Source: Bacteroidota bacterium (GTDB lineage: Bacteria > Bacteroidota > Bacteroidia > B-17B0 > Aurantibacillaceae). From it: DNA of 64,000 nucleotides. The stretch spans positions 124,001-188,000 of the forward strand of contig JAJNDK010000002.1 in the NCBI GenBank assembly GCA_021156365.1. The letters run 5' to 3'. The notes beneath the pieces are model-generated. The model saw only the letters and a list, made by a program, of their open reading frames with translations. It was not told the origin of the DNA and ran no database searches. Every line of letters begins with the position of its first letter. The stretch's first letter is position 1. Both the position numbers and the translations under genes were made by a program. Shown here one piece after another: positions 42,671-58,137 of this stretch.

Positions 42671-42801
42671 CATTTTTAGATGGTCACCCGGAAAATTGTT
42701 GTGTCCACCTCATTTTTTTGAACCTCCCGTTCTGCAATACTTATCTTTAGTCTGCCATCCCCGGTCCTTTTAAATTCCATTTGATTGATTATTTTTATCC
42801 T

Positions 42802-43395
42802 ATGAAATTAAAATTCATATTTCTATTGTTCACCGGGTTATTGGCTAAAGCCCAGCAAAACCCCGAGCTTGCCTTTTCCAAAAGTTATTCCTTCGAATAC
42901 GAAACCCAGTATGCGAAGGCTATCAATGCCATGCTGGAGCTGAATACGGAAAATTACCAGGTCAATCTTCGCTTAGGCTGGCTCTATTATCTGAGTAAAG
43001 ATTATACAAAGTCGGAGAGCTATTACAAAAAAGCGGTTTCCCTGGAACCAGCTTCCATTGAAGCCCGTTTCGGCCTTGTACTCCCGATGTCGGCCCTTGG
43101 CAACTGGAACAATGTGCTCGCGGTGTATCTCGAAATTGTAAAAACCGATCCTCACAATTCGATCGCCAACTACCGGATCGCCAGTATCTACTACAACCGC
43201 AAGGATTATGCGAATGCCGGTACTTATATTTCAAAGGTCATTAAAATGTATCCCTTCGATTATGACGGCAATCTGTTGAACGGAAAAATACTGGTCGCAC
43301 AAAACAAAGCTGCTGAAGCAAAAAAATTCCTGATCAAAGCGTTAGAATACAATCCACAGTCCGAAGAAGTGAAAACCCTGCTTAAAAAACTTTGA
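42802..43395 (+). CDS. Secreted TPR protein next to a LytTR regulator
   Basis: The start at 42802 gives MKLKFIFLLFTGLLAKAQ, a signal peptide cut near residue 18. Four TPR-like units fill the rest: QVNLRLGWLYYLSKDYTKSESYYKKA (cut; about 52-77), EARFGLVLPMSALGNWNNVL, IANYRIASIYYNRKDYANAG and DGNLLNGKILVAQNKAAEAK. Probably a periplasmic scaffold. It ends 10 bases before the LytTR regulator, so the two are co-transcribed; a role as sensor partner is inferred from position only. Confidence 0.75.
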   Translation: MKLKFIFLLFTGLLAKAQQNPELAFSKSYSFEYETQYAKAINAMLELNTENYQVNLRLGWLYYLSKDYTKSESYYKKAVSLEPASIEARFGLVLPMSALGNWNNVLAVYLEIVKTDPHNSIANYRIASIYYNRKDYANAGTYISKVIKMYPFDYDGNLLNGKILVAQNKAAEAKKFLIKALEYNPQSEEVKTLLKKL

Positions 43396-43405
43396 TCCTG
43401 CCCTT

Positions 43406-44095
43406 ATGAAATGCCTGATCGTTGATGATAATAAAATAGCCCGAAGCGTTCTGAAACATTTTCTGAGTGCGTTGGACTATGTAAGCCTTGCAGGCGACTG
43501 CGAAAGCGTGGCAGAGGCCGTAAATATCATGAGCAGGGAAAAGATCGATCTACTGCTGTTGGATGTGGAAATGCCCGGTATGAGCGGCTTTGATTTCCTG
43601 AACAGTTTTCCTGAACACCCAATGGTGATCCTTATAACAGCAAAGGCAGAATATGCCGTAAGCGCTTTTGATCACAATGTAGTCGATTTCCTGCTGAAGC
43701 CGGTGGCAGAACCCCGTTTCATCAAAGCCATTCAGCGGGCCTGGGAGATCTACAAAAGTGATGAACAAAACTTTGAAACGGAAAAGGACTTTTTTTTCAT
43801 TCGGGAGAAAGGTGTTTCTTCCCGGCTGATGATCTCCGACATATTGTATATCCAGGCCCTGGGTGATTACATTACCATTCACACCAGCGAAAAAAAAATC
43901 ACCATCCACTACTCCATTAGCGCTATCGAAAAAAAGCTTTCCCCTGCACGCTTCATGCGCGTTCACCGCTCGTATATTCTTGCACTCGATAAGATCGAAA
44001 CAGTGGAAGAAGGAACCGCTTTTGTATACCAGCAACCCATTCCCGTAGGTGATGCACATCGTTCCCAGCTGATGAAACGGCTTAACCTGCTGTAA
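43406..44095 (+). CDS. LytTR family response regulator (first)
   Basis: DNA-binding two-component regulator. The receiver domain (residues 1-118) shows MKCLIVDDNK, the phospho-acceptor Asp53 in LLLLDVEMPG and the K in FLLKPVAEP. The LytTR DNA-binding domain (about 128-229) shows FIREKGVSSRLMISDILYIQ, GDYITIHT, FMRVHRSYI and IPVGDAHRSQLMKRL. Length (229) is typical. No kinase is encoded in its own pair; the hybrid kinase 319 bases downstream is the nearest candidate partner. Confidence 0.92.
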   Translation: MKCLIVDDNKIARSVLKHFLSALDYVSLAGDCESVAEAVNIMSREKIDLLLLDVEMPGMSGFDFLNSFPEHPMVILITAKAEYAVSAFDHNVVDFLLKPVAEPRFIKAIQRAWEIYKSDEQNFETEKDFFFIREKGVSSRLMISDILYIQALGDYITIHTSEKKITIHYSISAIEKKLSPARFMRVHRSYILALDKIETVEEGTAFVYQQPIPVGDAHRSQLMKRLNLL

Positions 44096-44242: not shown

Positions 44243-44414
44243 ATGGTCAGCTAAAGGGTGCCGTTCTATAGGGATTCTTCATAAAATTTCGTTCCAGATT
44301 CAAGCCTTTTCGACCTGTTTTTCGGTCTGTTCAACAAAAACCCCGTTCCGGAGTCATCCTGGACCTTAATTTAGGTACGGATAATTGATTATTTTAGTCG
44401 GTCGGAACACTAAC

Positions 44415-46619
44415 ATGAACGCGAAATTAAAAGGACATACCAGGCTTATCATTATCACCAGTTCGCTGGCTACGATCCTATTGGTTCTTTTTATTGCGAT
44501 GAATGCCAACAGGTATATGTCCAGGATGTCGGAAAACAATACGAAGCTATACAACGCCTACCGTATCTCCGAGCTGATGAAATCGTTCAAAAGCAATATC
44601 AGCATCCTCGAAAACAAACAAAGAGGCTACCTCGTAACCGGGGATGGAAAATTCCTCGAAGAATACAAACTAAAAGAAACAGAGACTAAAACCTACCTGA
44701 AAAGCATGGAGAAATATTTTTCGGGTAAACCGGAAGAAGAATCTTTCTACAAGCTGAAGGAGCTTACCTACAAAAAACTGATGGAAGCCAAGGGCCTCGG
44801 TGGCCAAAGTACTATCGGTGTTCCGGGCAGTACTACAGAAACTGCAGGTACCGGGTTACAAACCATGAGCGACATCAACACCACCGTAGAAGCAATTAAC
44901 GAAAGTCTTTCGAAAACCACCAAGCAACTACTCAATAACAGTGTGGAATTTGTGGATGCATCCAAAAACTGGAGCTTGTTGGAAATTGCGATCGGTATCC
45001 TCATCGCACTTGCCGCCTCTGTTTTTTTGTTGAGAGACATCAACATCCGGAATAAGCTGGAAGAAGAGCTGCGCATCGCAAAGAAAAGAGCCGACGACAA
45101 CGCCCTGCTGAAAGAACAGTTTATGGCCAATATGAGCCACGAGATCCGCACGCCCATGAATGCCATTCTGGGATTTTCGGACCTGATGCAGAAGACCCGC
45201 CTGGATACAACACAGGGCGATTATATGCAGGCCATCAAAAAAAGCGGCAGCAATCTTTTGAACCTGATCAATGATATTCTTGATTTTTCGAAAATAGAAG
45301 CGGGACAGCTTTCCATAGAAAAAATTCCTTTCAGTGTGATAGAACTGCTGCAGACACTCCGGATTATGTTCGCTGAAAAAGCTGCTGCGAAAACGATCGG
45401 CTTTGAAGTGAAATACAATGAAAAGATGCCCCGCCTTGTGTTCGGAGATCCGACCCGCCTGAACCAGATCCTCGTAAACCTGGTAAACAATGCTATTAAG
45501 TTCACTTCCAAAGGAAATGTATCTCTAAGCTGCGAAATACGTTCCATTGAGCACGATATTGTACAACTGGTATTCCGTGTGAAAGATTCGGGGATTGGTA
45601 TTCCAAAAGATAAGCAGGAAAGTGTTTTTGAGCGTTTCAACCAGGGCAATAAAGAAACAACGCGGATGTACGGTGGCACCGGGCTCGGGCTTGCGATCGT
45701 AAAGAACCTGGTCGCCCTGCAGAACGGAACTATCCTATTAAAAAGTAAAGAAGGCGAAGGCTCGGAATTTATTGTTTCCCTGAGTTATCCCGTAGCCTAT
45801 GAATCCGAAGAAGCTCCTTCGACTGAATATAGTATCGGATTAAAAATACCAGGAAACAGATCGGTGCTGCTGACAGAAGACAATGAACTGAACCAGCAAC
45901 TGGCGACCAATTACCTGGAAGGTTTCGGACTGCAGGTAGAAATCGCAGAGAACGGGCAGATCGCACTCGAAAAAGCTTCCTTGAAAAAATACGATCTCAT
46001 CCTGATGGACATACAAATGCCGGTGATGGATGGATACATGGCTTCAAAAAAGATCAGGGAAGAATTGCGCTACGCTGGCCCCGTGATCGCAATGACTGCC
46101 CACAGCATAGCAGGTGAAAAAGAAAAATGCCTTAGCTTCGGTATGAATGATTATATCTCAAAACCTTTCAAAGAACGGGAGCTTTTCAATGTTATTGCGA
46201 AGCACATTTCTTCCGGTGATCCAACTGAAGTAAAAAAAGAAAACACAAGGTATTCTACCACTGATGAAAATGAAACCGTTGTAGATCACAACGAGCTGAT
46301 GCAGCTGGCACGTGGTAACCATACATTTCTAAAAGATATTTCCGAAACCTTTATCCAACAAAACAGGAACGATATAAAAATGATGGAAGAAGCCTTAGCT
46401 AAAGAAAATTTTGAGAGCATCCAATCCATTGCACACCGGATGAAAACATCCATGGGTTTTATGGGCATGCGAAAATTCCTGGGATTGCTGGATGAAGTGG
46501 AAATGGGTGCTGAAAAAAAAGTTACCATAGAAACACTGAGATCAGCTTTTGTGCAGCTGAAAGACATTTCACAAAAGGCCTGCATGGAATTCGAAGAACT
46601 TATTAAAACATTAGCATGA
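44415..46619 (+). CDS. Hybrid histidine kinase: CHASE3-like, HisKA, HATPase, receiver, HPt
   Basis: Membrane sensor kinase with an internal phosphorelay. The ATG at 44415 (MNAKLKGHTR) is preferred over a TTG 10 codons earlier. Domains: helix 1 (about residues 10-28), CHASE3-like helical sensor (KQRGYLVTGDGKFLEEYK, about 62-79), helix 2 (about 195-215), HisKA with His242 in MSHEIRTPMNAI, HATPase (LVNLVNNAIKFTSKG; MYGGTGLGLAIVKNL), receiver with Asp532 in LMDIQMPVMDG, and a C-terminal HPt with His674 in IAHRMKTSMGFM. Its TGA overlaps the next ATG (ATGA), so kinase and PqqD-like protein are coupled. First gene of the 7.7-kb operon. Confidence 0.94.
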   Translation: MNAKLKGHTRLIIITSSLATILLVLFIAMNANRYMSRMSENNTKLYNAYRISELMKSFKSNISILENKQRGYLVTGDGKFLEEYKLKETETKTYLKSMEKYFSGKPEEESFYKLKELTYKKLMEAKGLGGQSTIGVPGSTTETAGTGLQTMSDINTTVEAINESLSKTTKQLLNNSVEFVDASKNWSLLEIAIGILIALAASVFLLRDINIRNKLEEELRIAKKRADDNALLKEQFMANMSHEIRTPMNAILGFSDLMQKTRLDTTQGDYMQAIKKSGSNLLNLINDILDFSKIEAGQLSIEKIPFSVIELLQTLRIMFAEKAAAKTIGFEVKYNEKMPRLVFGDPTRLNQILVNLVNNAIKFTSKGNVSLSCEIRSIEHDIVQLVFRVKDSGIGIPKDKQESVFERFNQGNKETTRMYGGTGLGLAIVKNLVALQNGTILLKSKEGEGSEFIVSLSYPVAYESEEAPSTEYSIGLKIPGNRSVLLTEDNELNQQLATNYLEGFGLQVEIAENGQIALEKASLKKYDLILMDIQMPVMDGYMASKKIREELRYAGPVIAMTAHSIAGEKEKCLSFGMNDYISKPFKERELFNVIAKHISSGDPTEVKKENTRYSTTDENETVVDHNELMQLARGNHTFLKDISETFIQQNRNDIKMMEEALAKENFESIQSIAHRMKTSMGFMGMRKFLGLLDEVEMGAEKKVTIETLRSAFVQLKDISQKACMEFEELIKTLA

Positions 46620-46864
46620 AGATCAAAAAAAATATTGCCCTTAGCGACACCGGCTTCGTATTCGATCCTTCCACCGGAAATTCCTTTTCTGCCAATCCCA
46701 TTGGGATGGAGATCATCCGGCAGATCAGGGAAGGAAAAACACAGGAACAGATCGCCGAACATATATTAAAAACCTATCAGACAGATGCAGGTACATTCGA
46801 AAAAGACTATCACGATTTTTTGAATATGCTGAACCGTTTCAGGCTTACAGAGAATATTCAATGA
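46616..46864 (+). CDS. PqqD-like protein (RiPP recognition element)
   Basis: An 82-residue protein of the PqqD family, the wing-helix domains that bind leader peptides for modifying enzymes. Key positions: the strand pair around DTGFVFDPSTGNSFSANPIG (about residues 11-30), the helix GMEIIRQIREGKTQEQIAEHI (cut; about 30-50) and the closing DYHDFLNMLNRFRL. It overlaps both neighbours by 4 bases (ATGA), the kinase before and the ATP-grasp gene after. No separate precursor peptide gene is visible; the nearest leader-like sequence is the N-terminus of the decarboxylase at 47920. Confidence 0.85.
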   Translation: MKIKKNIALSDTGFVFDPSTGNSFSANPIGMEIIRQIREGKTQEQIAEHILKTYQTDAGTFEKDYHDFLNMLNRFRLTENIQ

Positions 46865-47910
46865 GCAAACCGAAATTACATATTGCAGTCACCGGCCTCA
46901 ATGCCATCGACAGTCCCGGGCCGGGAATAGCTGTGATACGGGCCTTAAAGGAAAGCCTTCTCTTTGATGCACGGATCATTGGTTTGTGTTATGAATCGCT
47001 GGAACCGGGTATTTATATGCATGAGCTGGTAGACAGAACCTACAAGCTACCACCACCTGCAGCAGGTAAGGATGCCCTGCTCAAAAGACTGGAGCAGATC
47101 CATAGCGAAGAACGCATTGATGTCATTATTCCGAATTTCGATGCAGAGCTTTTTAGCTTTATTCAACTGGCCGATCAGCTGAAAACAGCCATGAATATTC
47201 ATACTTTCCTTCCTACCACCGAACAATTTGAAGCAAGGCATAAAGTGAACCTGGCCGACTATGGAAAAAAACACGGGATCCTTGTTCCGGAAAGTAAAGT
47301 GATCTTTACGCTACACGAGCTATACCAGGCGCAGGATGTATTCAATTATCCGTTCGTTGTAAAGGGAAAATTCTATGACGCCTCTATTGTATACAATCGC
47401 GAACAGGCCACAGCAGCCTTCCACAAGATCAGCGCCAAATGGGGATTACCGATCATCCTGCAGGAATTTATTTCAGGAGAGGAAGTGAATGTGACAGCCA
47501 TAGGTGATGGAAAAGGAAATACGATCGGCGCCGTTCCGATGAAAAAACAATACATCACCGACAAGGGAAAAGCCTGGGCCGGTATCTCCATTGACGATAA
47601 TAAGCTGCTTGACATGACGCACACATTGATACAATCGACAAAATGGCGAGGCGGCATGGAACTGGAGATCGTAAAAACCGAAGAAGATGAATATTATCTT
47701 CTGGAGATCAATCCGCGTTTTCCTGCCTGGGTTTACCTGGCCGTAGGTTGCGGGCAGAATCATCCGGAAGCATTGGTACGGCTGGCGATGGGAGAAGAGG
47801 TGGAGACATGGTCAGCTTACGCTATCGGTAAATTATTTATTCGTTATTCCTACGATATGATCGTTAACCTGGACGAATTTGAAAAGATCTGCACTTTAGG
47901 AAAGCTTTAA
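46861..47910 (+). CDS. ATP-grasp ligase, CarB-like
   Basis: Probably forms an acyl-phosphate and joins a carboxylate to an amine or similar group; substrate unknown. The pre-ATP-grasp domain is at about residues 1-110 (IAVTGLNAIDSPGPGIAVIRAL). ATP-binding pieces are YPFVVKGKFYDASIV (about 161-175), LQEFISGEEVNV (about 200-211) and the metal-site LEIVKTEEDEYYLLEINPRF (about 273-292) with the final E-x-N-x-R set. Length (349) is short, as in peptide- or amino-acid-modifying members. It overlaps the PqqD-like gene by 4 bases and ends 9 bases before the decarboxylase. Confidence 0.88.
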   Translation: MSKPKLHIAVTGLNAIDSPGPGIAVIRALKESLLFDARIIGLCYESLEPGIYMHELVDRTYKLPPPAAGKDALLKRLEQIHSEERIDVIIPNFDAELFSFIQLADQLKTAMNIHTFLPTTEQFEARHKVNLADYGKKHGILVPESKVIFTLHELYQAQDVFNYPFVVKGKFYDASIVYNREQATAAFHKISAKWGLPIILQEFISGEEVNVTAIGDGKGNTIGAVPMKKQYITDKGKAWAGISIDDNKLLDMTHTLIQSTKWRGGMELEIVKTEEDEYYLLEINPRFPAWVYLAVGCGQNHPEALVRLAMGEEVETWSAYAIGKLFIRYSYDMIVNLDEFEKICTLGKL

Positions 47911-47919
47911 GATACATAT

Positions 47920-49278
47920 ATGAAAAAACTGCAATATGAAAGACCGGTGATCCAGAAGCTGAATACAGGGCTCACCAATAAGTTCGGCACCCGTACAGAA
48001 TCCGATCCTGTGACACATATCGATGACCTGGCGGTAGAAAAGCTGATCGCTCAATTCGGTTCCCCGCTTTTTGTGCTGTCCGAACAAACGATCCGCTCTG
48101 CATTCAGGGATGCTTCACGTGCATTTAAGAACCGGTATCCCAAAGTGCAATTTGCCTGGTCCTACAAAACAAATTACATCAGCGCCGTATGTAATGTATT
48201 TCACCAGGAAGGATCCTGGGCAGAAGTGGTTTCCGGCTTTGAATATGAAAAAGCGCTGGCAAACGGTGTTCCCGGCAACAAGATCATTTTCAACGGGCCG
48301 GATAAAAGTGAGAACGATCTGAAACAGGCGATCACCAACGATTCGCTTATCCACATCGATCATATGGACGAGCTGTATATGCTGAAAGACATTGCTGCAG
48401 CAGCCAATAAAAAACCACGTGTTGCCATCCGGGTAAATATGGATACGGGCATTTTTCCGGCATGGGATCGCTTTGGCTTTAACTATGAGAACGGTGAAGC
48501 GATGGAAGCAGTCAGTAAGATCTGCAACGACACGCAACTTTCACTGGTCGGATTACATTGCCACATTGGTACCTTCATGATGTCAACAAGCGCATACGGC
48601 ATTGCTGCAAAAAAACTTTCTGAATTTGCACTGAACATCCGGAAAAAATTCAACAGGAACATCGAATACATTGATATGGGCGGTGGCTTTGCTTCCAAAA
48701 ACACGCTGAAAGGATCTTTCTTACCAGGTACGGATGCTTCACCCACATTTGATCAATATGCAGAGGCCATTTGCGAATCACTTTTAAATGCAGGCTTCAC
48801 ACAGGAAAACCTGCCACTGCTGATCCTCGAAACAGGAAGAGCGCTGGTAGATGAAGCAGGCTACCTGTTAGGGTCCGTGATCTCCAACAAACGCCTGTCG
48901 GACGGAAGGCGCGCAACTATTATGGATTTTGGTGTGAACATTCTTTTCACCTCTTTCTGGTACGATCATAAGATCAGTCCCGCACAATCGTTCGGCAGTC
49001 ATCACGAAGATACTGTGCTCTATGGTCCGCTTTGTATGAACATCGATATGCTGCGTGAGAACATTCCTTTCCCCCCACTAAAAAAGAACGACAAAGTGGT
49101 GGTGCATACTGTAGGTGCATACAACATGACACAATGGATGCAATTTATTTCCATGCGTCCTGCCGTGGTAATGATCGGAACGGATGGCAAAGTAAATCTC
49201 ATCCGCCGCCGCGAAACCATCCAAAGCATCCAGCATGAAGAAGAGATGCCCCTTTACCTGAAAAATTTTAAACTCTAA
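47920..49278 (+). CDS. Fold-type III PLP decarboxylase with a leader-like N-terminal tail
   Basis: Relative of diaminopimelate and ornithine/arginine decarboxylases. The PLP lysine is Lys83 in WSYKTN. Further motifs: GLHCHIGT (about 212-219, the H-x-G-[ST] site), the phosphate loop DMGGGF (about 250), ETGRALV in place of EPGR (about 306), and GPLCMNID with Cys372, which replaces the usual C-[DE]-x-x-D site. The first ~23 residues, MKKLQYERPVIQKLNTGLTN, precede the barrel and resemble the leader of RiPP precursors (YxxP...L). The substrate amino acid is unknown. The 9-base gap to the ATP-grasp gene and the 3-base gap to the next gene indicate one operon. Confidence 0.88.
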   Translation: MKKLQYERPVIQKLNTGLTNKFGTRTESDPVTHIDDLAVEKLIAQFGSPLFVLSEQTIRSAFRDASRAFKNRYPKVQFAWSYKTNYISAVCNVFHQEGSWAEVVSGFEYEKALANGVPGNKIIFNGPDKSENDLKQAITNDSLIHIDHMDELYMLKDIAAAANKKPRVAIRVNMDTGIFPAWDRFGFNYENGEAMEAVSKICNDTQLSLVGLHCHIGTFMMSTSAYGIAAKKLSEFALNIRKKFNRNIEYIDMGGGFASKNTLKGSFLPGTDASPTFDQYAEAICESLLNAGFTQENLPLLILETGRALVDEAGYLLGSVISNKRLSDGRRATIMDFGVNILFTSFWYDHKISPAQSFGSHHEDTVLYGPLCMNIDMLRENIPFPPLKKNDKVVVHTVGAYNMTQWMQFISMRPAVVMIGTDGKVNLIRRRETIQSIQHEEEMPLYLKNFKL

Positions 49279-49281
49279 ACC

Positions 49282-51435
49282 TTGAACCAGGAACTACGGA
49301 AAATAAAAGACGGTTTGTTGTGCAGTTACGGACAGGTGTTCTTTTCGGACAATCCCTGGTTTGCTGGATTGCTGATTGCTGCTTCTCTTATCGATCCGCA
49401 GGTAGGGTTTTCCGGCATGCTGAGCGTTGTAGTTGCATTGCTTTTCGCTATGGTGGTCGGATTAAACAAAACAAGTATAAGTAAAGGCATCTACACGTAC
49501 AATGTATTGCTGACCGGTTTTGCTATGGGTGCGTATTTCGAATGTACCCTTCCTTTTATCGGCATCCTGTGTATGGCCTCACTACTCACTCTTTTTATCA
49601 GCGTGTGCCTGTCCGGACTGATGGCAAAATACAGGCTCCCTTTCCTGAGTCTTCCTTTTGTGTTAAGCGTTTGGATCCTTTTACTGAATACACGCAGCTT
49701 TGACGTTCAGGTGCTTTTGCCCAGGAATGTTTTTATACATGACAGCGGATGGAACAGCTTTGTGTTCTCTATCGATTTCTACCTGGAAAGTTTGAATCTT
49801 CCCGGTATACTTATTATTTACCTGAAGGCGATGGGCAGCATTTTCTTCCAGCACAGCCTCCTCGCTGGCATATTGATAACGATCGGTCTTCTCATCCATT
49901 CACGTATTACCTTCGCGCTTTCGTGGCTGGGTTTTGCTACAGGATTTTTATTTTTCCGGTATGTGCAAGGCAATATGATCAGCGCCGATTATGAAACGGT
50001 GAGCTTCAATTATATTTTCACAGCTATTGCGCTCGGTGGATTTTTTTACATTCCTTCCGCGGCCGGATTCCTACTGGTCCTTTTCTCTACATGCATTACA
50101 GGTCTCCTGATCACAGCTATTAATAAAATGACAGGCGTGTGGCTTCTTCCTGCTTATTCCCTGCCCTTTTCAGCTGCTACGATACTGCTCATCGCCGTGT
50201 TGAATAACCGGCTTACTTATAAATACCTGCACCCTGCTTTTTACCAGCAATATTCACCGGAGAAAAATCTATATGCTTTTCATATTTACATGGGGCGTTT
50301 CAGTAAAAATGTATTCACCGCCATTCAGCTTCCTTTTTTCGGTGAGTGGACGGTCTCCCAGGGCCATTCGGGAGCCATCACGCATAAAGATGATTTCCGG
50401 TATGCCTGGGATTTCGTAGTGACGGATGAACACAGTAAAACATTCCGGCTTCCGGGAAAAACCATTTCCGATTTTTATTGTTATGGTCTTCCCATCACCG
50501 CCCCTGCAGATGGACAGGTGGTAACGATCCTGAACGGGATCGACGACAATGCAGTGGGAGGAGTAAACCTGAACGAGAACTGGGGCAATAGCATTGTATT
50601 AAAACATTCCGAATTTTTGTACAGCAAGATCAGTCACATTAAAAACGATAGCTTCAAAGTGAAAGAAGGTGACCATGTGAAACGAGGCGACCTGATCGCT
50701 AACTGTGGCAATTCCGGTCGTTCGCCTGAGCCACATATTCACTTTCAGCTGCAGGAAAGCGCCTATATTGGTGCAGCTACCATCAGGTATCCACTTAGTC
50801 ATTATGTAGTGAAAACACCGGCTGGCAATGAGCACCGGTCGTTTGAGCATCCGAAAGAAAACGAGATCCTGTTCAGGCCAGTTGCCAATGCTGCGGTGAA
50901 AAAAGCATTTGAATTTATTCCAGGTATGAAATTTCGTTTCGAAACAGACCGATCCGGGATCAAATGTACAGAAAGCTGGGAAGTGATAACCGACAGCAGC
51001 AATGCGTCGTATATCTATTGCAGGGAAACCGGTTCTTCTGCCTGGTTTACTTATGATGATACGGTTTTCTATTTCACTTCCTTTTCAGGAGACAAAAAAT
51101 CCCTGCTCTTTTATTTTTACCTCGCAGCCTACAAGGTATTCTTTAGTCCCGAAGCATCGCTTGTTGTAAAAGATAGTTTACCGGCAGAACTGTTTTCCGG
51201 CAAGGCTAAAAAATGGTTGATGGATTTTATTTCACCTTTTTACATTTTTAAAGGCCCGGTATTTTCGTCACAATTCATTCATGATCCATTGGCGGAGCCC
51301 GGTTCTGTCACTATTGCTTCACGTGCGGGGATCAACGGGACAAGGATCTCTTTCGGGATCAGCCTGCAGGATAATAAATTGAATACACTAAAAGTCATGT
51401 TCAGCGATCAGTGCATATACGCACGATCTGTATAA
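49282..51435 (+). CDS. Urea-transporter-like membrane domain fused to an M23 peptidase
   Basis: Two-part protein of 717 residues. Residues about 20-315 hold eight to ten membrane helices with urea-transporter features (the long hydrophobic repeats and NVLLTGFAMGAYF near residue 74). A cytoplasmic or periplasmic M23-type domain follows from about 350: THKDDFRYAWDF (His368 and Asp378 as probable zinc ligands), APADGQVV, VKEGDHVKRGDLIANCGNSG and PHIHFQL (His484). The last ~170 residues are beta-rich and unrecognised. It starts with TTG, 3 bases after the decarboxylase stop. The transported solute may not be urea. Confidence 0.82.
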   Translation: MNQELRKIKDGLLCSYGQVFFSDNPWFAGLLIAASLIDPQVGFSGMLSVVVALLFAMVVGLNKTSISKGIYTYNVLLTGFAMGAYFECTLPFIGILCMASLLTLFISVCLSGLMAKYRLPFLSLPFVLSVWILLLNTRSFDVQVLLPRNVFIHDSGWNSFVFSIDFYLESLNLPGILIIYLKAMGSIFFQHSLLAGILITIGLLIHSRITFALSWLGFATGFLFFRYVQGNMISADYETVSFNYIFTAIALGGFFYIPSAAGFLLVLFSTCITGLLITAINKMTGVWLLPAYSLPFSAATILLIAVLNNRLTYKYLHPAFYQQYSPEKNLYAFHIYMGRFSKNVFTAIQLPFFGEWTVSQGHSGAITHKDDFRYAWDFVVTDEHSKTFRLPGKTISDFYCYGLPITAPADGQVVTILNGIDDNAVGGVNLNENWGNSIVLKHSEFLYSKISHIKNDSFKVKEGDHVKRGDLIANCGNSGRSPEPHIHFQLQESAYIGAATIRYPLSHYVVKTPAGNEHRSFEHPKENEILFRPVANAAVKKAFEFIPGMKFRFETDRSGIKCTESWEVITDSSNASYIYCRETGSSAWFTYDDTVFYFTSFSGDKKSLLFYFYLAAYKVFFSPEASLVVKDSLPAELFSGKAKKWLMDFISPFYIFKGPVFSSQFIHDPLAEPGSVTIASRAGINGTRISFGISLQDNKLNTLKVMFSDQCIYARSV

Positions 51436-51457
51436 TCAATACCTAAACTACTGTCCT

Positions 51458-52153
51458 ATGATAAAAGCAATAGCCATCGACGACGAACTGATCGCGACAA
51501 AAGTGATCGAAAATTTCTGCAAGGAGATCGACTTTATCGAACTGGAAAAAACATTCAATGAATCGAAAGAAGGATTAAAGTACCTCAACAAATTCCCTGT
51601 CGATCTTGTGTTCCTCGATATTGAAATGCCTGGTCTCAATGGTATTGAACTGTATAAAAAACTGAAGCAGGATACATTAGTGATCTTTATTACTTCCCGT
51701 GCTGATTATGCAGTGGAAGGCTTTAACCTGCAGGCAACAGATTACCTTGTGAAACCATTTACCTTCGAGCGTTTTGTACAAGCAGTGAAAAGGGCGAATG
51801 AGCTGCTGAATTTCCAGTCGCAAAAACCGGGTGCAGACAACAAACATATTTTTATACGTGCCGATTTCAGTTTGGTGAAGATCGCCCTCGATGATATTGA
51901 TTATATCGAAGGCCTGGATGACTACCTCCGCATCCACCTGCACAATCAGAAAAGCCTGATAGCACGAATGACACTTAAAAAAATGCTGGAAAAACTTCCA
52001 GGTGCTGATTTCTTGCGGATCCATCGTTCCTTTATTATTCCACTCAAAAAGATAGAGCGCATCAAAACAAGAGTGATCACTGTGGTGGGCAAAGAGCTGC
52101 CGGTAGGTCAAAGCTATGAGGAAGAAGTAGCGAAAGTGCTAAGCTCTAAATAA
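51458..52153 (+). CDS. LytTR family response regulator (second)
   Basis: Two-component regulator closing the operon. The receiver (residues 1-118) has AIAIDDE, the phospho-acceptor Asp54 in LVFLDIEMPG and K in YLVKPFTFE. The LytTR domain (about 130-231) has FIRADFSLVKIALDDIDYIE, DDYLRIHL, FLRIHRSFIIPL and LPVGQSYEEEV. It is similar in layout to the regulator at 43406. It lies 22 bases after the transporter-peptidase gene and 5 bases before a strong terminator, so the hybrid kinase at the operon head is its probable partner. Confidence 0.93.
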   Translation: MIKAIAIDDELIATKVIENFCKEIDFIELEKTFNESKEGLKYLNKFPVDLVFLDIEMPGLNGIELYKKLKQDTLVIFITSRADYAVEGFNLQATDYLVKPFTFERFVQAVKRANELLNFQSQKPGADNKHIFIRADFSLVKIALDDIDYIEGLDDYLRIHLHNQKSLIARMTLKKMLEKLPGADFLRIHRSFIIPLKKIERIKTRVITVVGKELPVGQSYEEEVAKVLSSK

Positions 52154-52158
52154 CATGA

Positions 52159-52192
52159 AAAAGCCCCCTGACGATCCTGTCAGGGGGCTTTT
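52159..52192 (+). terminator. Strong terminator of the kinase-decarboxylase-LytTR operon
   Basis: A 14-bp stem (AAAAGCCCCCTGAC with GTCAGGGGGCTTTT) and a 6-base loop. The core CCTGACGATCCTGTCAGG differs by one base from the typA terminator core at 15705. Confidence 0.95.
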
Positions 52193-52268
52193 CATTAACT
52201 AAACAAAAGGTAATTAGTTCATAGGAGTGTTTGTTCGCTGCGGTGATATTCACCGCGACGATAATAGA

Positions 52269-53445: not shown

Positions 53446-56400
53446 TTACCTAACCAATGTTACATGCCCCACTTTATTGATCTTTTCATCCGAATAGGTT
53501 TCGGCAGTTACTTTAAATATATACACATCTTCCTGCACGCCATGTCCTTTGTATCTTCCGTCCCATGCTGTTTCCAGGTCCTTGGCTTCGAACAGTTTCA
53601 ATCCCCAGCGATCGAACACATAGATCGTGATCTTTTTGATCCCGAAACCTTTCGGCTGCCATCCTTCATTCACATGATCGCCGTTAGGACTGAAGGCAGT
53701 AGGTATATACAGACCGTATTCCTGCGAAACGAAGATCGTTACTGTATCTGAGTTCAAACAACCGAACTCATTTGCTGCAGTGAGGATATAGGTGGTCGTA
53801 TTGGTTGGTGTAGCTACCGGCGTAAGACAATTATAACAATTGAGCGTTGTTGTACTGAATTCTGTCCATATGAAATCCGGAGAGTTGCTATATCCGAAAA
53901 GGATCGCTTCGTCTTCCACGTCGATCGTTGTATCCATACCTGCATACACCACCGGAGGAGGATTTACCACAATAGTTACCATATCCGTTGCAGGACAAAG
54001 TCCGCCTGTATAGGAAGTTGTTACGGTATACACTGTTGTGGCAAAAGGAGCGGCACTGCTGAATGCAAGATTCGGATTGGATAATCCGGCAACAGGAAGC
54101 CATGCAAATGTATTTCCCCCTGTAGCTACGAGATTAGCATGCTCACCGAGACAGATCGTATCATTGATCCCGGCATCTGCTATAATCGTCGGAAGTACCG
54201 TGATCGTAACCGTAGCCGGTTGAGGGCAACTATTGATAGGTAATACCGTGTAAACAGTTGTAAACTGTGGAGACACATTCATACTTGAGTTATCCGGATT
54301 CAAAGGTGTAATGGTACCTCCTGCAGGTGTGGAACCCCATGGTTGATAAGTAGCCGCACCGCTTGCATTTATCTGAATAGTTTCTCCTGCACAGATCGTG
54401 GCACTTACAGGTGTTAAGGTTATAACCGGAGCTGTCGTTACAGCAATAGTGATAGTGCCTGTTCCGGGGCAGGTAGCAGTTTGCCCTGTGACCGTATACG
54501 TGGTGTTAGCGACCGGAGTAGCTATCACCGAAGTTCCGCTTGAACTGCTGAGCGTGGCAGGAGGTGCCCATGTATAATTGCTGCCTCCGCTGGCTGTAAG
54601 CGTGGTATTGGCTCCTACACAAACAGTAGGATCCACAGCAGTGATCGTAAGTGTAGGTGCTGCCTGAACCGTAACGGTTACAGTAGTATCGCCTGTACAG
54701 CCACTCTGAGCGCCATTCACCGTATACGTTGTTGTAACTGTCGGACTTGCTGTCACATTTGCACCCGACGTAGAACTGAGACCGGTAGCCGGTGTCCAGG
54801 TATAGGTAGCAGCACCGCTTGCGTTAATAGCTGCAGAACCACCCACACAGATCGGTGTCGGTGTATTGGTGATAACAGATAAGTTATTCGCCACCGTGAT
54901 CGTAACAGTAGTATCGCCCGTACAACCACCTGTTGCACCATTCACTGTATAGGTAATGGTTGCAGGAGGAGTAGAAGTAACATTGGGACCGGTGGTTGCA
55001 CTCAAGTTCGTTGCCGGTGTCCATGTATAGGTAGTAGCGCCGGAAGCGGTAAGGTTCACGGGTGTATTCGGACAGGTAGTAGCGCTGGAAGGTGTCACAG
55101 ATACCACGAGGTTGTTTGCAACATTGACGGTGACAGTTGTATCACCCGTACAGGTTCCCTGCGTGCCGGTGACCGTATATGTTATCGTAGCTGCAGGCGT
55201 GGATGTAACCGTTGCTCCCGTAGTTGCACTCAGGTCGGTTCCCGGGCTCCAGGTGTAAGTAGTAGCGCCGGAAGCTGTTAATATTACAGGTGTATTAGGG
55301 CATGTAGTCGCGTTAGGTGGTGTTACGGAAATCACCAACGCCGTAGCTACTGTTACAGTTACTGTGGTATCACCAGTACAACCACCGTTTGCACCTGATA
55401 CCGTATAAGTGGTAGTAGTTGCCGGTGAAGCTGTCACAGTGTTTGTAGTTGTTCCACTGAGTCCCGTGCCGGGGCTCCAGGTATAAGTAGTAGCGCCTGA
55501 TGCAGTAAGAAGCACCGAGCCTCCCGGGCATATAGTGGGAGCAGGAGGTGTAACATCAACTACAAGGTTATTCGAAACTGTTATAGTAACAGTGGTATCG
55601 CCCGTACAACCACCCGTTGCACCTGACACGGTATACGTGATCGTGGCTGCAGGTGTGGACGTAACGTTGGCACCCGTAGTAGCACTCAGGTCGGTAGCCG
55701 GACTCCAGGTATACGTTGTAGCTCCTGAAGCCGTTAAATTCACCGGTGTGTTCGGACATACAGTACTTGAAGGTGAAACATTCACCACGAGGTTGTTCGA
55801 TACAGTTATGGTAACAGTGGTATCGCCCGTACAACCGCCTGTTGCACCTGTTACAGTGTAAGTGATCGTAGATCCGGGTGTAGATACAACATTCGGCCCG
55901 CTCGTAACATCCAGATCTGTTCCCGGGCTCCAGGTATAGGTAGTAGCGCCTGAAGCCGTTAAATTCACCGGTGTGTTCGGACATACAGTACTGGAAGGTG
56001 AAACATTCACCACGAGGTTGTTCGATATAGTTACAGTAACAGTGGTGTCTCCCGTACAGGTACCGCTTGTTCCCGTTACTGTATATGTAGTAGTAGCTGC
56101 AGGGGTAGCAGTAACTGTTGAGCCGGTTGTTCCGCTCAGTCCGGCTGCATTAGCCCAGGTATATGTAGTTGCACCGCTTGCTGTAAGGTTCACCGAAGCA
56201 CCCGGACATATTGTTGCTGCGGGAGGATTCACAGAAACCGTTACAATCGGGTTCACTGTCACTGTTACACTTTGTACAGTGAAACACAAAGGATCAGCGG
56301 GGGTTTCCACCCGGATAAAATAAGTACCCGATGCAGAAACAGTAGAAGATGGCAATGGGTTCACATCACCCGTGGCATCTGCATTCGTAGCATGATAAGT

Positions 56401-58137
56401 GACAATATTCGCACCTGTTCCTGAAACAGTGGATGCAAGATTAAGTGTGGCAGGTGCACAAATAGCAGCAGGTGGAGTTACCGTGAATGCAGGTGGAACA
56501 CAGGCCGCACAAGGAGTTACCGTGATCGGAACTGTTTGTACATGTGTAGGGCAGGCCGGATTGGGAGTAGACACCGTTAAGCTATAAGTTGTAGAAGCTG
56601 CAGGACAAACAGTCGGTGTAAGTGTGGTTGAACCTGTCATAGCTGTAGTTGGAGACCAGGTATAGGTTACAGGGCCTAATATAGCAGGGTCATCAAAGCT
56701 GATGCTCCAGCCGGTAAGACTTCCCGCACCAAAAGCAAAACCGCCTGGCCCGTCAAATGTAAGCGTCCATACTCCATTCGGATTACAACCGTTCAAACCT
56801 GACATCGGCTGATTAGGAGCCCAGGTACCTCCATTGGGAAACGTTCCACCAAAGGCAGAACCACCTACGGGAACAAAAGTTGTATTGCTATATCCGCCTG
56901 TAGCAGATCCTGCCGGTACAAGAATGATATCGCAGCCACCGGGAGCCGTCAATGTTACTGAAAAACCACTTGTATTCAGGTTACACTGTTGTCCGTTGGG
57001 AACCGTTGCGCCATTGCAGGGACATGTCCCGGTACCAAATGGCGGAGGCGGTGAAAAGCAGAGCTGCGTTCCTGAAAAATTAAATCCGTTGATAACGACT
57101 TGTGTAATGGTTCCATTGGCTATGCTGGTGGTATTCAATCCCTGTACATTTATATTTACACTTGCATCTCCACCTGTCACTACTTCAAATTCATTGTTCT
57201 CAAAAGTAGGTGTGGTATGCGGGCTGATTTCCTGCTGAGCAGTTGCAGTGATAGTAGCACAGTCGCCCGGGCAAAGTGTAGTAGGTGAAGCGCTCGCAGT
57301 CACTGAATACACAGGTGCAATAACATTGATCGTAACGGTTTCCGTACACACTACGCCCGCTCCGGTAGTAAGCTGGGCAGTGTAGGTAGTGGTAGTGGTA
57401 GGAGCAACAGGCGTAGGGTTCGGTCCTCCCGGATTTCCAACACCATAGCTGTATCCATCGTGCAGCCATACAAGCTGTCCGTTCACATCATTCTGGTAGA
57501 TCTGCACATTATCAATACCCCAGTGGTCAAAGTCAGCGCCCGAATCGGCATCCTGGAACCACTGGAACATGGTATTGGAGGTAATAGCCGCAGCCGGAAT
57601 AGCAAAACACCAATTGTTCCAATTGACAAACTGCGGATCATTCCCGCCATTCGGATCGAAATAATGGATATCGGTCCAGGTAGCGCCACCATTGGTTGAA
57701 TACTGCAGGTAAATTCCTTCATCCGGTTCATCTGGCCCCTCGCAAGGTGCAGCATCTCCCTGTTCTGCAAATAACATATCGAAACAGATGGTTACACCGG
57801 CGGTAGCCGAAGACAGATTATACGGGCTGGATATCAGCGCCCGTGGCACAGCGGTATTATTGTCCATCCAGGCATGCGGAGTACCATCTACCCCGCCCGG
57901 AGAACAAGGGTTCGAAAAATTAACCGCACCCGGCGTGCCGCTCCAGCCTGCACCAAAACTACCGGAATTGAAATTTTCGTTCAGCATCACCGTACCCGAC
58001 GACTGACCGAAGGCTGACAGTGTAGCCGACTGTCCGCAGGTGATGGTATACTGCGTTGCTGACGTATTTACACTACATTGCCCGAAGACAAATGCATACG
58101 AAAACAGTGCTGGAAAAAGAAGTAAGAGTCTTTTCAT
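53446..58137 (-). CDS. Large secreted repeat protein with type B type IX sorting domain
   Basis: A 1563-residue surface or secreted adhesin-like protein. Signal peptide 1-20 (FVFGQ). A jelly-roll-like domain follows (about 45-215; NENFNSGSFGAGWSG, FDHWGIDNVQIYQND), then a proprotein-convertase-P-like domain (about 310-500; GLNGCNPNGVWTLTFDGPGG). About eleven Ig/PKD-like repeats of ~75 residues come next, with cores like CPNTPVNLTASGATTYTWSP and CTGDTTVTITV. The last ~85 residues are a gliding-motility-type C-terminal domain (PTAFSPNGDHVNEGWQPKG, VFDRWG, GRYKGHGVQEDVY, GHVTLVR). Export by type IX secretion is inferred. Its start overlaps the 58134 gene by 4 bases. Confidence 0.92.
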   Translation of the reverse strand: MKRLLLLFPALFSYAFVFGQCSVNTSATQYTITCGQSATLSAFGQSSGTVMLNENFNSGSFGAGWSGTPGAVNFSNPCSPGGVDGTPHAWMDNNTAVPRALISSPYNLSSATAGVTICFDMLFAEQGDAAPCEGPDEPDEGIYLQYSTNGGATWTDIHYFDPNGGNDPQFVNWNNWCFAIPAAAITSNTMFQWFQDADSGADFDHWGIDNVQIYQNDVNGQLVWLHDGYSYGVGNPGGPNPTPVAPTTTTTYTAQLTTGAGVVCTETVTINVIAPVYSVTASASPTTLCPGDCATITATAQQEISPHTTPTFENNEFEVVTGGDASVNINVQGLNTTSIANGTITQVVINGFNFSGTQLCFSPPPPFGTGTCPCNGATVPNGQQCNLNTSGFSVTLTAPGGCDIILVPAGSATGGYSNTTFVPVGGSAFGGTFPNGGTWAPNQPMSGLNGCNPNGVWTLTFDGPGGFAFGAGSLTGWSISFDDPAILGPVTYTWSPTTAMTGSTTLTPTVCPAASTTYSLTVSTPNPACPTHVQTVPITVTPCAACVPPAFTVTPPAAICAPATLNLASTVSGTGANIVTYHATNADATGDVNPLPSSTVSASGTYFIRVETPADPLCFTVQSVTVTVNPIVTVSVNPPAATICPGASVNLTASGATTYTWANAAGLSGTTGSTVTATPAATTTYTVTGTSGTCTGDTTVTVTISNNLVVNVSPSSTVCPNTPVNLTASGATTYTWSPGTDLDVTSGPNVVSTPGSTITYTVTGATGGCTGDTTVTITVSNNLVVNVSPSSTVCPNTPVNLTASGATTYTWSPATDLSATTGANVTSTPAATITYTVSGATGGCTGDTTVTITVSNNLVVDVTPPAPTICPGGSVLLTASGATTYTWSPGTGLSGTTTNTVTASPATTTTYTVSGANGGCTGDTTVTVTVATALVISVTPPNATTCPNTPVILTASGATTYTWSPGTDLSATTGATVTSTPAATITYTVTGTQGTCTGDTTVTVNVANNLVVSVTPSSATTCPNTPVNLTASGATTYTWTPATNLSATTGPNVTSTPPATITYTVNGATGGCTGDTTVTITVANNLSVITNTPTPICVGGSAAINASGAATYTWTPATGLSSTSGANVTASPTVTTTYTVNGAQSGCTGDTTVTVTVQAAPTLTITAVDPTVCVGANTTLTASGGSNYTWAPPATLSSSSGTSVIATPVANTTYTVTGQTATCPGTGTITIAVTTAPVITLTPVSATICAGETIQINASGAATYQPWGSTPAGGTITPLNPDNSSMNVSPQFTTVYTVLPINSCPQPATVTITVLPTIIADAGINDTICLGEHANLVATGGNTFAWLPVAGLSNPNLAFSSAAPFATTVYTVTTSYTGGLCPATDMVTIVVNPPPVVYAGMDTTIDVEDEAILFGYSNSPDFIWTEFSTTTLNCYNCLTPVATPTNTTTYILTAANEFGCLNSDTVTIFVSQEYGLYIPTAFSPNGDHVNEGWQPKGFGIKKITIYVFDRWGLKLFEAKDLETAWDGRYKGHGVQEDVYIFKVTAETYSDEKINKVGHVTLVR
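54690..56230. repeat. Tandem ~225-bp repeats inside the adhesin gene
   Basis: About seven copies encode the most alike Ig-like repeats. Long blocks, for example GTAGTATCGCCCGTACAACC and CGGTGTGTTCGGACATACAG, return almost unchanged between copies near 55600, 55830 and 55990. This suggests recent amplification or ongoing recombination. Confidence 0.8.

Follow-up and report, generated by a model that had tools for sequence, protein, structure and literature searches.

A conserved cassette of a PqqD-like protein, an ATP-grasp enzyme, a decarboxylase, and a UT/M23 fusion in Bacteroidota: a candidate transenvelope small-molecule system

The window analyzed here is a 64,000-nucleotide stretch of a Bacteroidota bacterium of the Aurantibacillaceae (GenBank assembly GCA_021156365.1, contig JAJNDK010000002.1, positions 124,001 to 188,000). 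On its plus strand it carries a gene cluster that encodes a urea transporter (UT) channel fused to an M23 peptidase domain. The conserved unit to which this cluster belongs is composed of a PqqD-like protein, an ATP-grasp enzyme, a pyridoxal phosphate (PLP) decarboxylase, the UT/M23 fusion, a barrel with tetratricopeptide repeats (TPR), and a periplasmic TPR protein. These are not the six genes of an earlier note on the window, made from the sequence alone, which ran from a hybrid kinase to a LytTR regulator. The strand, order, and places of those six genes are confirmed by open reading frames (ORFs) and Pfam matches.

Four genes of the window are type A core components or the channel. The PqqD-like small protein (46616..46864) matches PF05402 at 2.2e-10, and its 41.1 bits exceed the cut-off of 23.4. 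The ATP-grasp enzyme (46861..47910), a putative amide ligase, matches PF15632 (ATPgrasp_Ter) and PF02655 (ATP-grasp_3), with a structure match to 2pn1 at 7.2e-7. The decarboxylase (47920..49278) has the alanine-racemase fold and matches PF02784/PF00278 (Orn_Arg_deC_N plus C). The UT/M23 gene (49282..51435) has a TTG start codon and contains PF03253 (5.6e-53), PF01551 (8.3e-15), and an uncharacterized C-terminal domain at about residues 505-717.

The four genes are preceded by a CHASE3 hybrid histidine kinase (44415..46619; CHASE3, HisKA, HATPase, REC, and Hpt Pfam domains), for which an alternative TTG start is listed at 44385. They are followed by a REC plus LytTR response regulator, LytTR 2 (51458..52153). 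Spacing is tight, as had been described: two ATGA overlaps come first, and the remaining genes are separated by 9, 3, and 22 bases. The left edge that the earlier note placed at 44415 does not hold, because a TPR protein (42781..43395) and a further REC plus LytTR regulator, LytTR 1 (43406..44095), share this neighborhood in relatives; both are on the plus strand. The TPR protein matches TPR families and is a core component, predicted to be periplasmic; it lies upstream here and is usually the last gene of the cassette. Its probable true start is the ATG at 42802, ahead of a hydrophobic N-terminus. The strong terminator proposed for the right end is real as a 15-pair hairpin (52158..52193), but its T tract is scored on the minus strand and the plus strand reads TTTTC. 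The hairpin may therefore serve a convergent gene as much as the operon.

Conservation was assessed in loci, designated L, and in genomes, designated G. A decarboxylase scan of a genome collection returned at least 583 relatives, and the best 80 loci were kept. By labeled taxonomy, 76 of these are Bacteroidetes/Bacteroidota or subgroups, 2 are Ignavibacteria, 1 is from Melainabacteria, and 1 is an uncultured bacterium. With the window copy (L001) and 6 family loci they make up 87 decarboxylase loci, from which the LysA-like locus of the window's own genome (L002) is excluded. The 88 clustered loci, and the 88 rows of the decarboxylase alignment, include L002; this ORF clustering covers the window as well as the 6 family loci, which are too short to show flanks. 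Another 20 loci within the class were chosen mostly for lower identity. The genome samples consist of 87 genomes of the family and 395 of the class. PqqD counts are from tblastn, as ORF picking undercounts PqqD and misses some genes, e.g., the decarboxylase of L209 and L217.

The usual order in relatives is PqqD, ATP-grasp, decarboxylase, UT/M23, barrel, and TPR. ATP-grasp is directly upstream of the decarboxylase in 87/87 loci (the L084 copy is trimmed to 46 residues at a contig end), and PqqD is upstream in 85/87, where both misses, L035 and L084, start at contig ends. Since relatives keep these two genes next to the decarboxylase, the clustering exceeds chance. UT/M23 is downstream in 82/87 loci, some of them shortened by contig or locus ends. 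Of the five loci without an adjoining UT/M23, L029 and L074 end at a contig end, L050 and L058 encode UT/M23 elsewhere, and L032 has only a weak 54-residue match, with none in its genome at E 1e-20. ORF clusters recover ATP-grasp in 85 of the 88 loci, PqqD in 75 (an undercount), UT/M23 in 72, and the barrel and TPR genes in 66 each. All 20 further loci contain ATP-grasp, decarboxylase, UT/M23, and PqqD; the barrel is present in 19 and TPR in 18, with L134 ending at a contig end and L125 lacking a recognized TPR gene. Core junctions are mostly overlapping or short (medians -14, 21, 8, -14.5, and -4 bases), and gene order is preserved down to about 35% channel identity. A conserved unit joining ligase, decarboxylase, and membrane channel, as the earlier note had it, is thus upheld, and its boundaries missed the outer-membrane barrel and TPR core genes.

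Within the 395 class genomes, the decarboxylase (E 1e-100) is present in 75, UT/M23 (E 1e-30) in 85, and both in 72; the 85 include G160 and G399, which match the M23 part only. Three genomes have the decarboxylase without UT/M23 (G182, G339, and G346). In these, the gene is on the minus strand about 400 bases or less from a contig end, so the next gene would run off the contig. In the family, the type A decarboxylase (E 1e-60) is found in 7/87 genomes, and the ATP-grasp gene (E 1e-20) in exactly those 7. The window decarboxylase is 67-76% identical to copies of its own family and 59-75% identical to full-length matches from other families. This patchy spread and the overlapping identity ranges would fit horizontal transfer or repeated loss.

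Some loci vary in their enzymes. Duplicate cassette enzymes occur within one metagenome-assembled genome each for L010 plus L074 and L021 plus L034, as judged by a shared record prefix. In L032 (6243-8576), a 575-residue protein that is multicopper-oxidase-like by eye and a redoxin-like protein follow the type A enzyme trio, replacing UT/M23.

The kinase and LytTR genes form a regulatory layer at the level of lineages and do not belong to the core. The earlier note counted them as core, but the kinase and LytTR clusters are each found in 9/88 loci, compared with 85 for ATP-grasp and 72 for UT/M23. Among the six genes whose joint conservation it proposed to check, the four enzyme and channel genes stay together and the kinase and LytTR genes are scattered. 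Near relatives (L009, L010, L011, L013, L014, and L016, plus L140 and L141) are arranged, with small variations, as TPR, (LytTR), kinase, PqqD, ATP-grasp, decarboxylase, UT/M23, barrel, and LytTR. The LytTR 1 cluster is near the cassette in 9/88 loci and also in the family loci L140 and L141; a LytTR gene is also upstream in 2/20 further loci (L131, L138). In its sensor half, the window kinase is 43-72% identical to kinases beside type A systems and 68-72% identical to kinases beside four loci of a second system, type B (L168, L170, L172, L201). A PADLOC defense scan returned weak matches only, all to the kinase.

Other regulators are observed upstream of the cassette. An AraC-type regulator with an N-terminal half that is HMA-like by eye is upstream of PqqD in 29/88 loci (L012, L015, L018, and others). 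An extracytoplasmic function (ECF) sigma factor, a small membrane protein that is a possible anti-sigma factor, and an LTXXQ/Metal_resist-like protein are upstream in L022, L023, L024, L028, L036, L038, and L085, a flank pointing to possible control by envelope or metal stress. A GNAT acetyltransferase is directly upstream of PqqD in 6/88 loci (L068, L073, L077, L078, L082, L088) and is also upstream in the further loci L122, L124, L126, and L133.

The window decarboxylase belongs to the alanine-racemase-fold PLP decarboxylases. Both Pfam domains are present, and the PLP lysine K83 and the C372 and D376 of the C-x3-D motif are at least 95% conserved. The nearest solved structure is 7kh2, an N-citrylornithine decarboxylase (FigC/FslC), at 5.4e-58. 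That identity itself is not supported, with 233.4 bits for NF041039 against a cut-off of 500. Diaminopimelate decarboxylase, and with it a role in lysine biosynthesis, is rejected, and the diaminopimelate substrate suggested earlier is not supported: TIGR01048 gives 232.8 bits against a cut-off of 297.9, and a separate LysA-like gene of the genome reaches 398.7 bits.

FigC residues were mapped onto the window enzyme through the structure-match alignment, with residues taken from an excerpt of PMC7857480 and the numbering offset by hand from the PLP lysine. The excerpt names the citrate-binding residues H357 and R387 and the pocket residues modeled near the amide. In this mapping, R290, Y331, M355, and Y383 of FigC are kept as R307, Y348, M373, and Y401, and T327 is kept too. 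Citrate-binding H357 and R387 are replaced by Ile375 and Gln405 (at least 95% of the 88 rows), and T330 by Trp347. An excerpt of PMC8503589 lists relatives of the same fold that act on conjugates, namely the enzymes for citryl-ornithine, citryl-diaminopropionate, and O-citrylserine, as well as MccE and BtrK. The simplest reading is that the substrate would be a conjugate carrying an acyl group other than citrate.

Two known systems share parts of this chemistry. BtrI is an acyl carrier protein and BtrJ is part of the butirosin set. BtrI/BtrJ/BtrK resemble the cassette in combining a small protein, an ATP-grasp enzyme, and an alanine-racemase-fold decarboxylase that acts on a tethered amino acid (PMC8503589, in part, for BtrK). 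Unlike the butirosin set, the small protein here is PqqD-like and envelope channels are present. FslC/FigC and rhizoferrin synthesis (PMC7857480, in part) are alike in fold, in the logic of ligation before decarboxylation, and in the amide-side pocket residues. They differ in using an NRPS-independent siderophore (NIS) synthetase where the cassette has ATP-grasp, and a major facilitator superfamily (MFS) exporter where it has envelope channels.

The UT/M23 fusion is modeled by AlphaFold with a mean pLDDT (predicted local distance difference test) of 87.0. Residues 1-338 of the model have the UT fold (Z up to 37.9 over 313 residues, root-mean-square deviation 2.8), as in the urea transporters UT-B and dvUT, and residues of about 336-523 have the M23/LytM fold (Z up to 14.6). 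The channel scores below the yut cut-off (125.3 vs 274.6). For the pore, the reference residues are the pore Gln and Glu of dvUT (Q24 and E187), with the motif aligned by eye. At the position matching Glu187, 58/58 type A rows have Ala, Ser, Gly, or Tyr, and 15/15 strict type B rows have Gly/Ala; the strict set excludes L192, L196, L197, and L199. Gln is kept at the position matching Gln24 in 51/58 type A rows and in none of the 15 strict type B rows, of which 14 have Leu and 1 has a gap. Unlike UT-B and dvUT, the pore Glu is thus lost, in type B together with the Gln, and the M23 and C-terminal domains are fused. The best reading of these replacements is an altered pore that may serve a solute other than urea. 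A plasmid search with UT/M23 gave no site at which 80% of the query is matched; the matches listed, 15 of 65, are partial and cover up to 45%.

Residues H368, D377, H452, H485, and H487 of the M23 domain, its zinc ligands and catalytic histidines, are intact in 77/77 sequences. UT proteins have an N-in/C-in topology. Type A channels average 9.0 Lys plus Arg over the 68 residues assigned to the inside and 3.2 over the 81 assigned to the outside, for loop segments picked on this topology after viewing the window sequence. The inside-positive bias holds in 58/58 type A and 19/19 other sequences (77/77). In the segment joining the channel to M23, hydropathy over 19 residues peaks at 0.81 across the 77 sequences, compared with averages of 1.06-2.50 for the channel helices, one of which is without a value. 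Given the charge bias and the lack of a membrane-like stretch, the M23 domain is predicted to be cytoplasmic. The earlier note called it a wall peptidase; the active-site residues are intact, yet topology and charge bias favor the cytoplasm.

The barrel protein, modeled from L012 (pLDDT 89.5), consists of N-terminal helices and 14 long strands. Its best matches are the CymD, TodX, FadL, CymA, and OmpG channels (Z about 18-20). FadL, TodX, CymA, and OmpG share the 14-strand architecture; unlike them, the cassette barrel has N-terminal TPR helices, and identity is about 5-11%. FadL-like proteins of the Bacteroidota barrel assembly machinery (BAM) and type 9 secretion complexes (9n2d, 9hjm, 9hiv, 6h3i, and 8gl6) have the same barrel fold (Z 16.4-17.9), but no core cassette gene is a BAM or type 9 component. 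The exopolysaccharide exporters BcsC and PelB, both among the matches, are alike in a TPR domain preceding the barrel and a periplasmic TPR partner. Unlike these, the cassette barrel has 14 strands and no polysaccharide synthase is among the six core genes; clusters other than the core and the AraC regulator occur in at most 10/88 loci. A hydrophobic N-terminus is present in 65/69 TPR members and 64/66 barrels.

The window copy has no barrel gene between UT/M23 and LytTR 2, and a six-frame barrel profile search gave two weak matches, neither of them there. LytTR 2 directly follows UT/M23 in the window and follows the barrel gene in near relatives. A TPR/barrel pair is found on another contig of the window genome (L146:3600-6132). 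Its barrel shares 44% identity with the barrel of the G049 cassette, and its TPR protein is a tandem of two repeats of the cassette TPR family.

Type B is a second arrangement around the same channel. Real UT/M23 genes are present in 21 family genomes (24 hits minus the short, weak G020, G073, and G086), and 14 of these are without the type A decarboxylase and ATP-grasp. In the type B layout, wherever it is readable, UT/M23, TPR, and barrel genes are divergent from genes for a VOC-like protein, a fold-type-I decarboxylase, and a second ATP-grasp. The decarboxylase is of the fold-type-I Orn/Lys/Arg class (about 913 residues, PF01276), and the ATP-grasp has 488 residues and passes NF005096 (725.4 vs 684 bits). 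The small protein has no significant Pfam match itself and is called VOC because a relative matching PF00903 is 55-60% identical in best hits. VOC and fold-type-I decarboxylase genes are beside UT/M23 in 14 loci of two families (G009, G033, G036, G042, G071, G076, G079, G080, G083, G084; G184, G300, G390, G447), and the ATP-grasp adjoins in 12/12 loci whose contig extends far enough. For the remaining family genomes of the 14, G028 ends at a contig end, and G081, G082, and the UT contig of G029 were outside the reading. Across 22 type B pieces, queries with PqqD and with the ATP-grasp and decarboxylase of type A gave 0 hits at E 1e-4.

In a midpoint-rooted tree, the type B UT/M23 proteins group as a single clade (SH-aLRT 100) next to type A groups. 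At E 1e-100, no genome of the 395 has both decarboxylases (75 type A, 31 type B; P=0.0011 for no overlap, kinship not corrected for). Among the UT/M23 genomes of this sample that lack the type A decarboxylase, eight encode a close type B enzyme (77-84%). Of the others, G383 has a partial type A decarboxylase at a contig edge, G332 has a more distant type B copy on a separate contig, and neither enzyme is found in G289 (68% complete). The single clade, the shared sensor kinase, and the 0/395 overlap suggest that type A and type B could be one function with exchanged enzymes. Because the enzymes are swapped on a kept UT/M23-TPR-barrel apparatus and the decarboxylases never occur together in this sample, the sequence "ligate, decarboxylate, transport" looks like constrained logic.

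More distant type B decarboxylases (54-63%) are found in 23/395 genomes, 21 of which are without a UT/M23 hit. Nine such loci were compared. All 9 contain the decarboxylase, truncated in L217, and 8 contain the same ATP-grasp; a GABA-type transaminase plus CN hydrolase is present in 6, a C45 hydrolase in 6, an aldehyde dehydrogenase in 4, and a VOC protein in 4. A Roseobacter plasmid (Roseobacter ponti) encodes a CN hydrolase, the decarboxylase, a 'biotin carboxylase', and a C45 peptidase, with adjoining ABC binding proteins; by tblastn, a Cupriavidus plasmid has the same four genes. This operon content argues for probable amide chemistry and also supports a catabolic role. Almost the entire type B decarboxylase can be aligned with Rv2531c (9n0o, E 4e-236), whose reaction is not established according to an excerpt of the review PMC12910592. 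Operons of transaminase, CN hydrolase, Rv2531c-like decarboxylase, and ATP-grasp are seen in L209, L210, L212, L213, L214, and L215 (also L211, L216, L203, and L205), some with an added VOC protein, C45 hydrolase, or aldehyde dehydrogenase. They are possibly an uncharacterized basic-amino-acid pathway.

The window genes are best read as a type A version of a cassette that moves a small molecule across the cell envelope, in which an amide-linked basic amino acid would be decarboxylated and exported; this reading is given a probability of about 0.38. As the family assignments suggest, ATP-grasp would convert an amino acid to an amide, and the PqqD-like protein might serve as its partner or carrier. 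The decarboxylase would then remove the carboxyl group of the conjugate and not that of the free amino acid. The decarboxylated amide would reach the UT channel, where M23 on the cytoplasmic face may cut the amide at the pore mouth. The exit route would run from the altered UT pore by way of the periplasmic TPR protein to the 14-strand TPR barrel, on predicted structures and with a presumed outward direction. In a more general and rather doubtful form of this proposal, exchangeable protect-and-decarboxylate modules with unrelated decarboxylase folds would feed one conserved UT/M23-TPR-barrel apparatus, in which M23 would act as a cytoplasmic amidase and the TPR protein as a bridge, and the decarboxylated amino-acid amide would be released as a public good or signal.

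Several observations weigh against export of a decarboxylated amide. A cytoplasmic M23 domain would be unusual, and its placement depends on the N-in/C-in UT topology and on loop segments picked after the sequence was viewed. The enzyme trio of L050 and L058 is apart from UT/M23, and the L032 genome is without it at the threshold given above. As type B is without PqqD, the role of PqqD is not general. The FadL-like matches in BAM and type 9 complexes mean that the barrel need not be the product channel. The operons in which relatives of the type B enzymes (decarboxylase and ligase) are found look catabolic, which favors uptake and breakdown. In this main rival, which is possible but rather unlikely, the barrel, TPR protein, and UT channel would import an amide, peptide, or guanidino compound, cytoplasmic M23 would cut it, and ATP-grasp would trap it before decarboxylation, a trapping by conjugation likened to gamma-glutamylation routes. 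UT proteins are passive and need trapping, a point counted for uptake, along with the FadL/TodX uptake channels among the best barrel matches, the transaminase, hydrolase, and aldehyde dehydrogenase genes of the distant type B loci, and the ABC binding proteins of Roseobacter ponti. However, CN-hydrolase and C45-hydrolase queries hit no protein of the type A and type B loci at E 1e-8; a transaminase query found nothing beyond the BioA-like gene of L146, and the one match for aldehyde dehydrogenase was a gene on the opposite strand in the type A locus L046. Export is slightly favored over uptake.

The other rivals keep the ligase and decarboxylase and differ in the product. Maturation resembling that of ribosomally synthesized and post-translationally modified peptides (RiPPs), modeled on butirosin or LysW-type carriers, would have PqqD bind a leader or carrier peptide, ATP-grasp add an amino acid, the tethered residue be decarboxylated, and M23 release it. 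This is improbable, although PqqD family membership, the peptidase fold of a predicted cytoplasmic M23, and the fold relatives MccE and BtrK, which act on tethered or conjugated substrates (PMC8503589, in part), are in its favor: a precursor gene would hardly fit into the overlapping or short core junctions, with precursor genes upstream or elsewhere not searched for, and type B pieces have no PqqD. A rhizoferrin-type N-acyl diamine chelator, exported and metal-regulated as a siderophore or metallophore, is more improbable still. It draws on the N-citrylornithine decarboxylase as nearest structure, on AraC-type regulators (29/88), LTXXQ/Metal_resist-like proteins (8/88), and ECF sigma factors (10/88), and on the single multicopper-oxidase-like replacement of UT/M23 (by eye), but the FigC citrate-binding residues named in the PMC7857480 excerpt are replaced, and beyond the core and AraC no cluster exceeds 10/88 loci, with no search aimed specifically at NIS synthetases or TonB receptors. 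Least probable of all is the wall-fragment recycling and sensing of the earlier note, in which a periplasmic M23 would cut the wall, the fragment or diaminopimelate would be decarboxylated and ligated, and the kinase and LytTR would sense the product. An intact M23 motif and adjoining kinase and LytTR genes agree with it; the sub-threshold LysA score beside a LysA-like gene of the genome's own, the predicted cytoplasmic M23, and the rarity of the regulators (9/88 loci each) speak against it.

The type A decarboxylase is present in about a fifth of the sampled class genomes (75/395), and literature searches aimed at the cassette or at the type B context, limited to open-licence papers, found no description of it. 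The earlier note could name no known pathway with this gene set, which is in line with this result. Excerpts of two RiPP papers (PMC10352776 and PMC10373908) do not deal with the gene set. Two enzyme sets on one channel apparatus constitute a built-in test of product identity. If export through the altered pore is correct, the UT fold would have a non-urea role, and the type B branch provides genomic context for Rv2531c-type decarboxylases.

Beyond the hairpin, at 53446-58137, the window encodes a repetitive protein of 1563 residues whose N-terminus is signal-like; this gene coincides with a rise in G+C to about 0.50.

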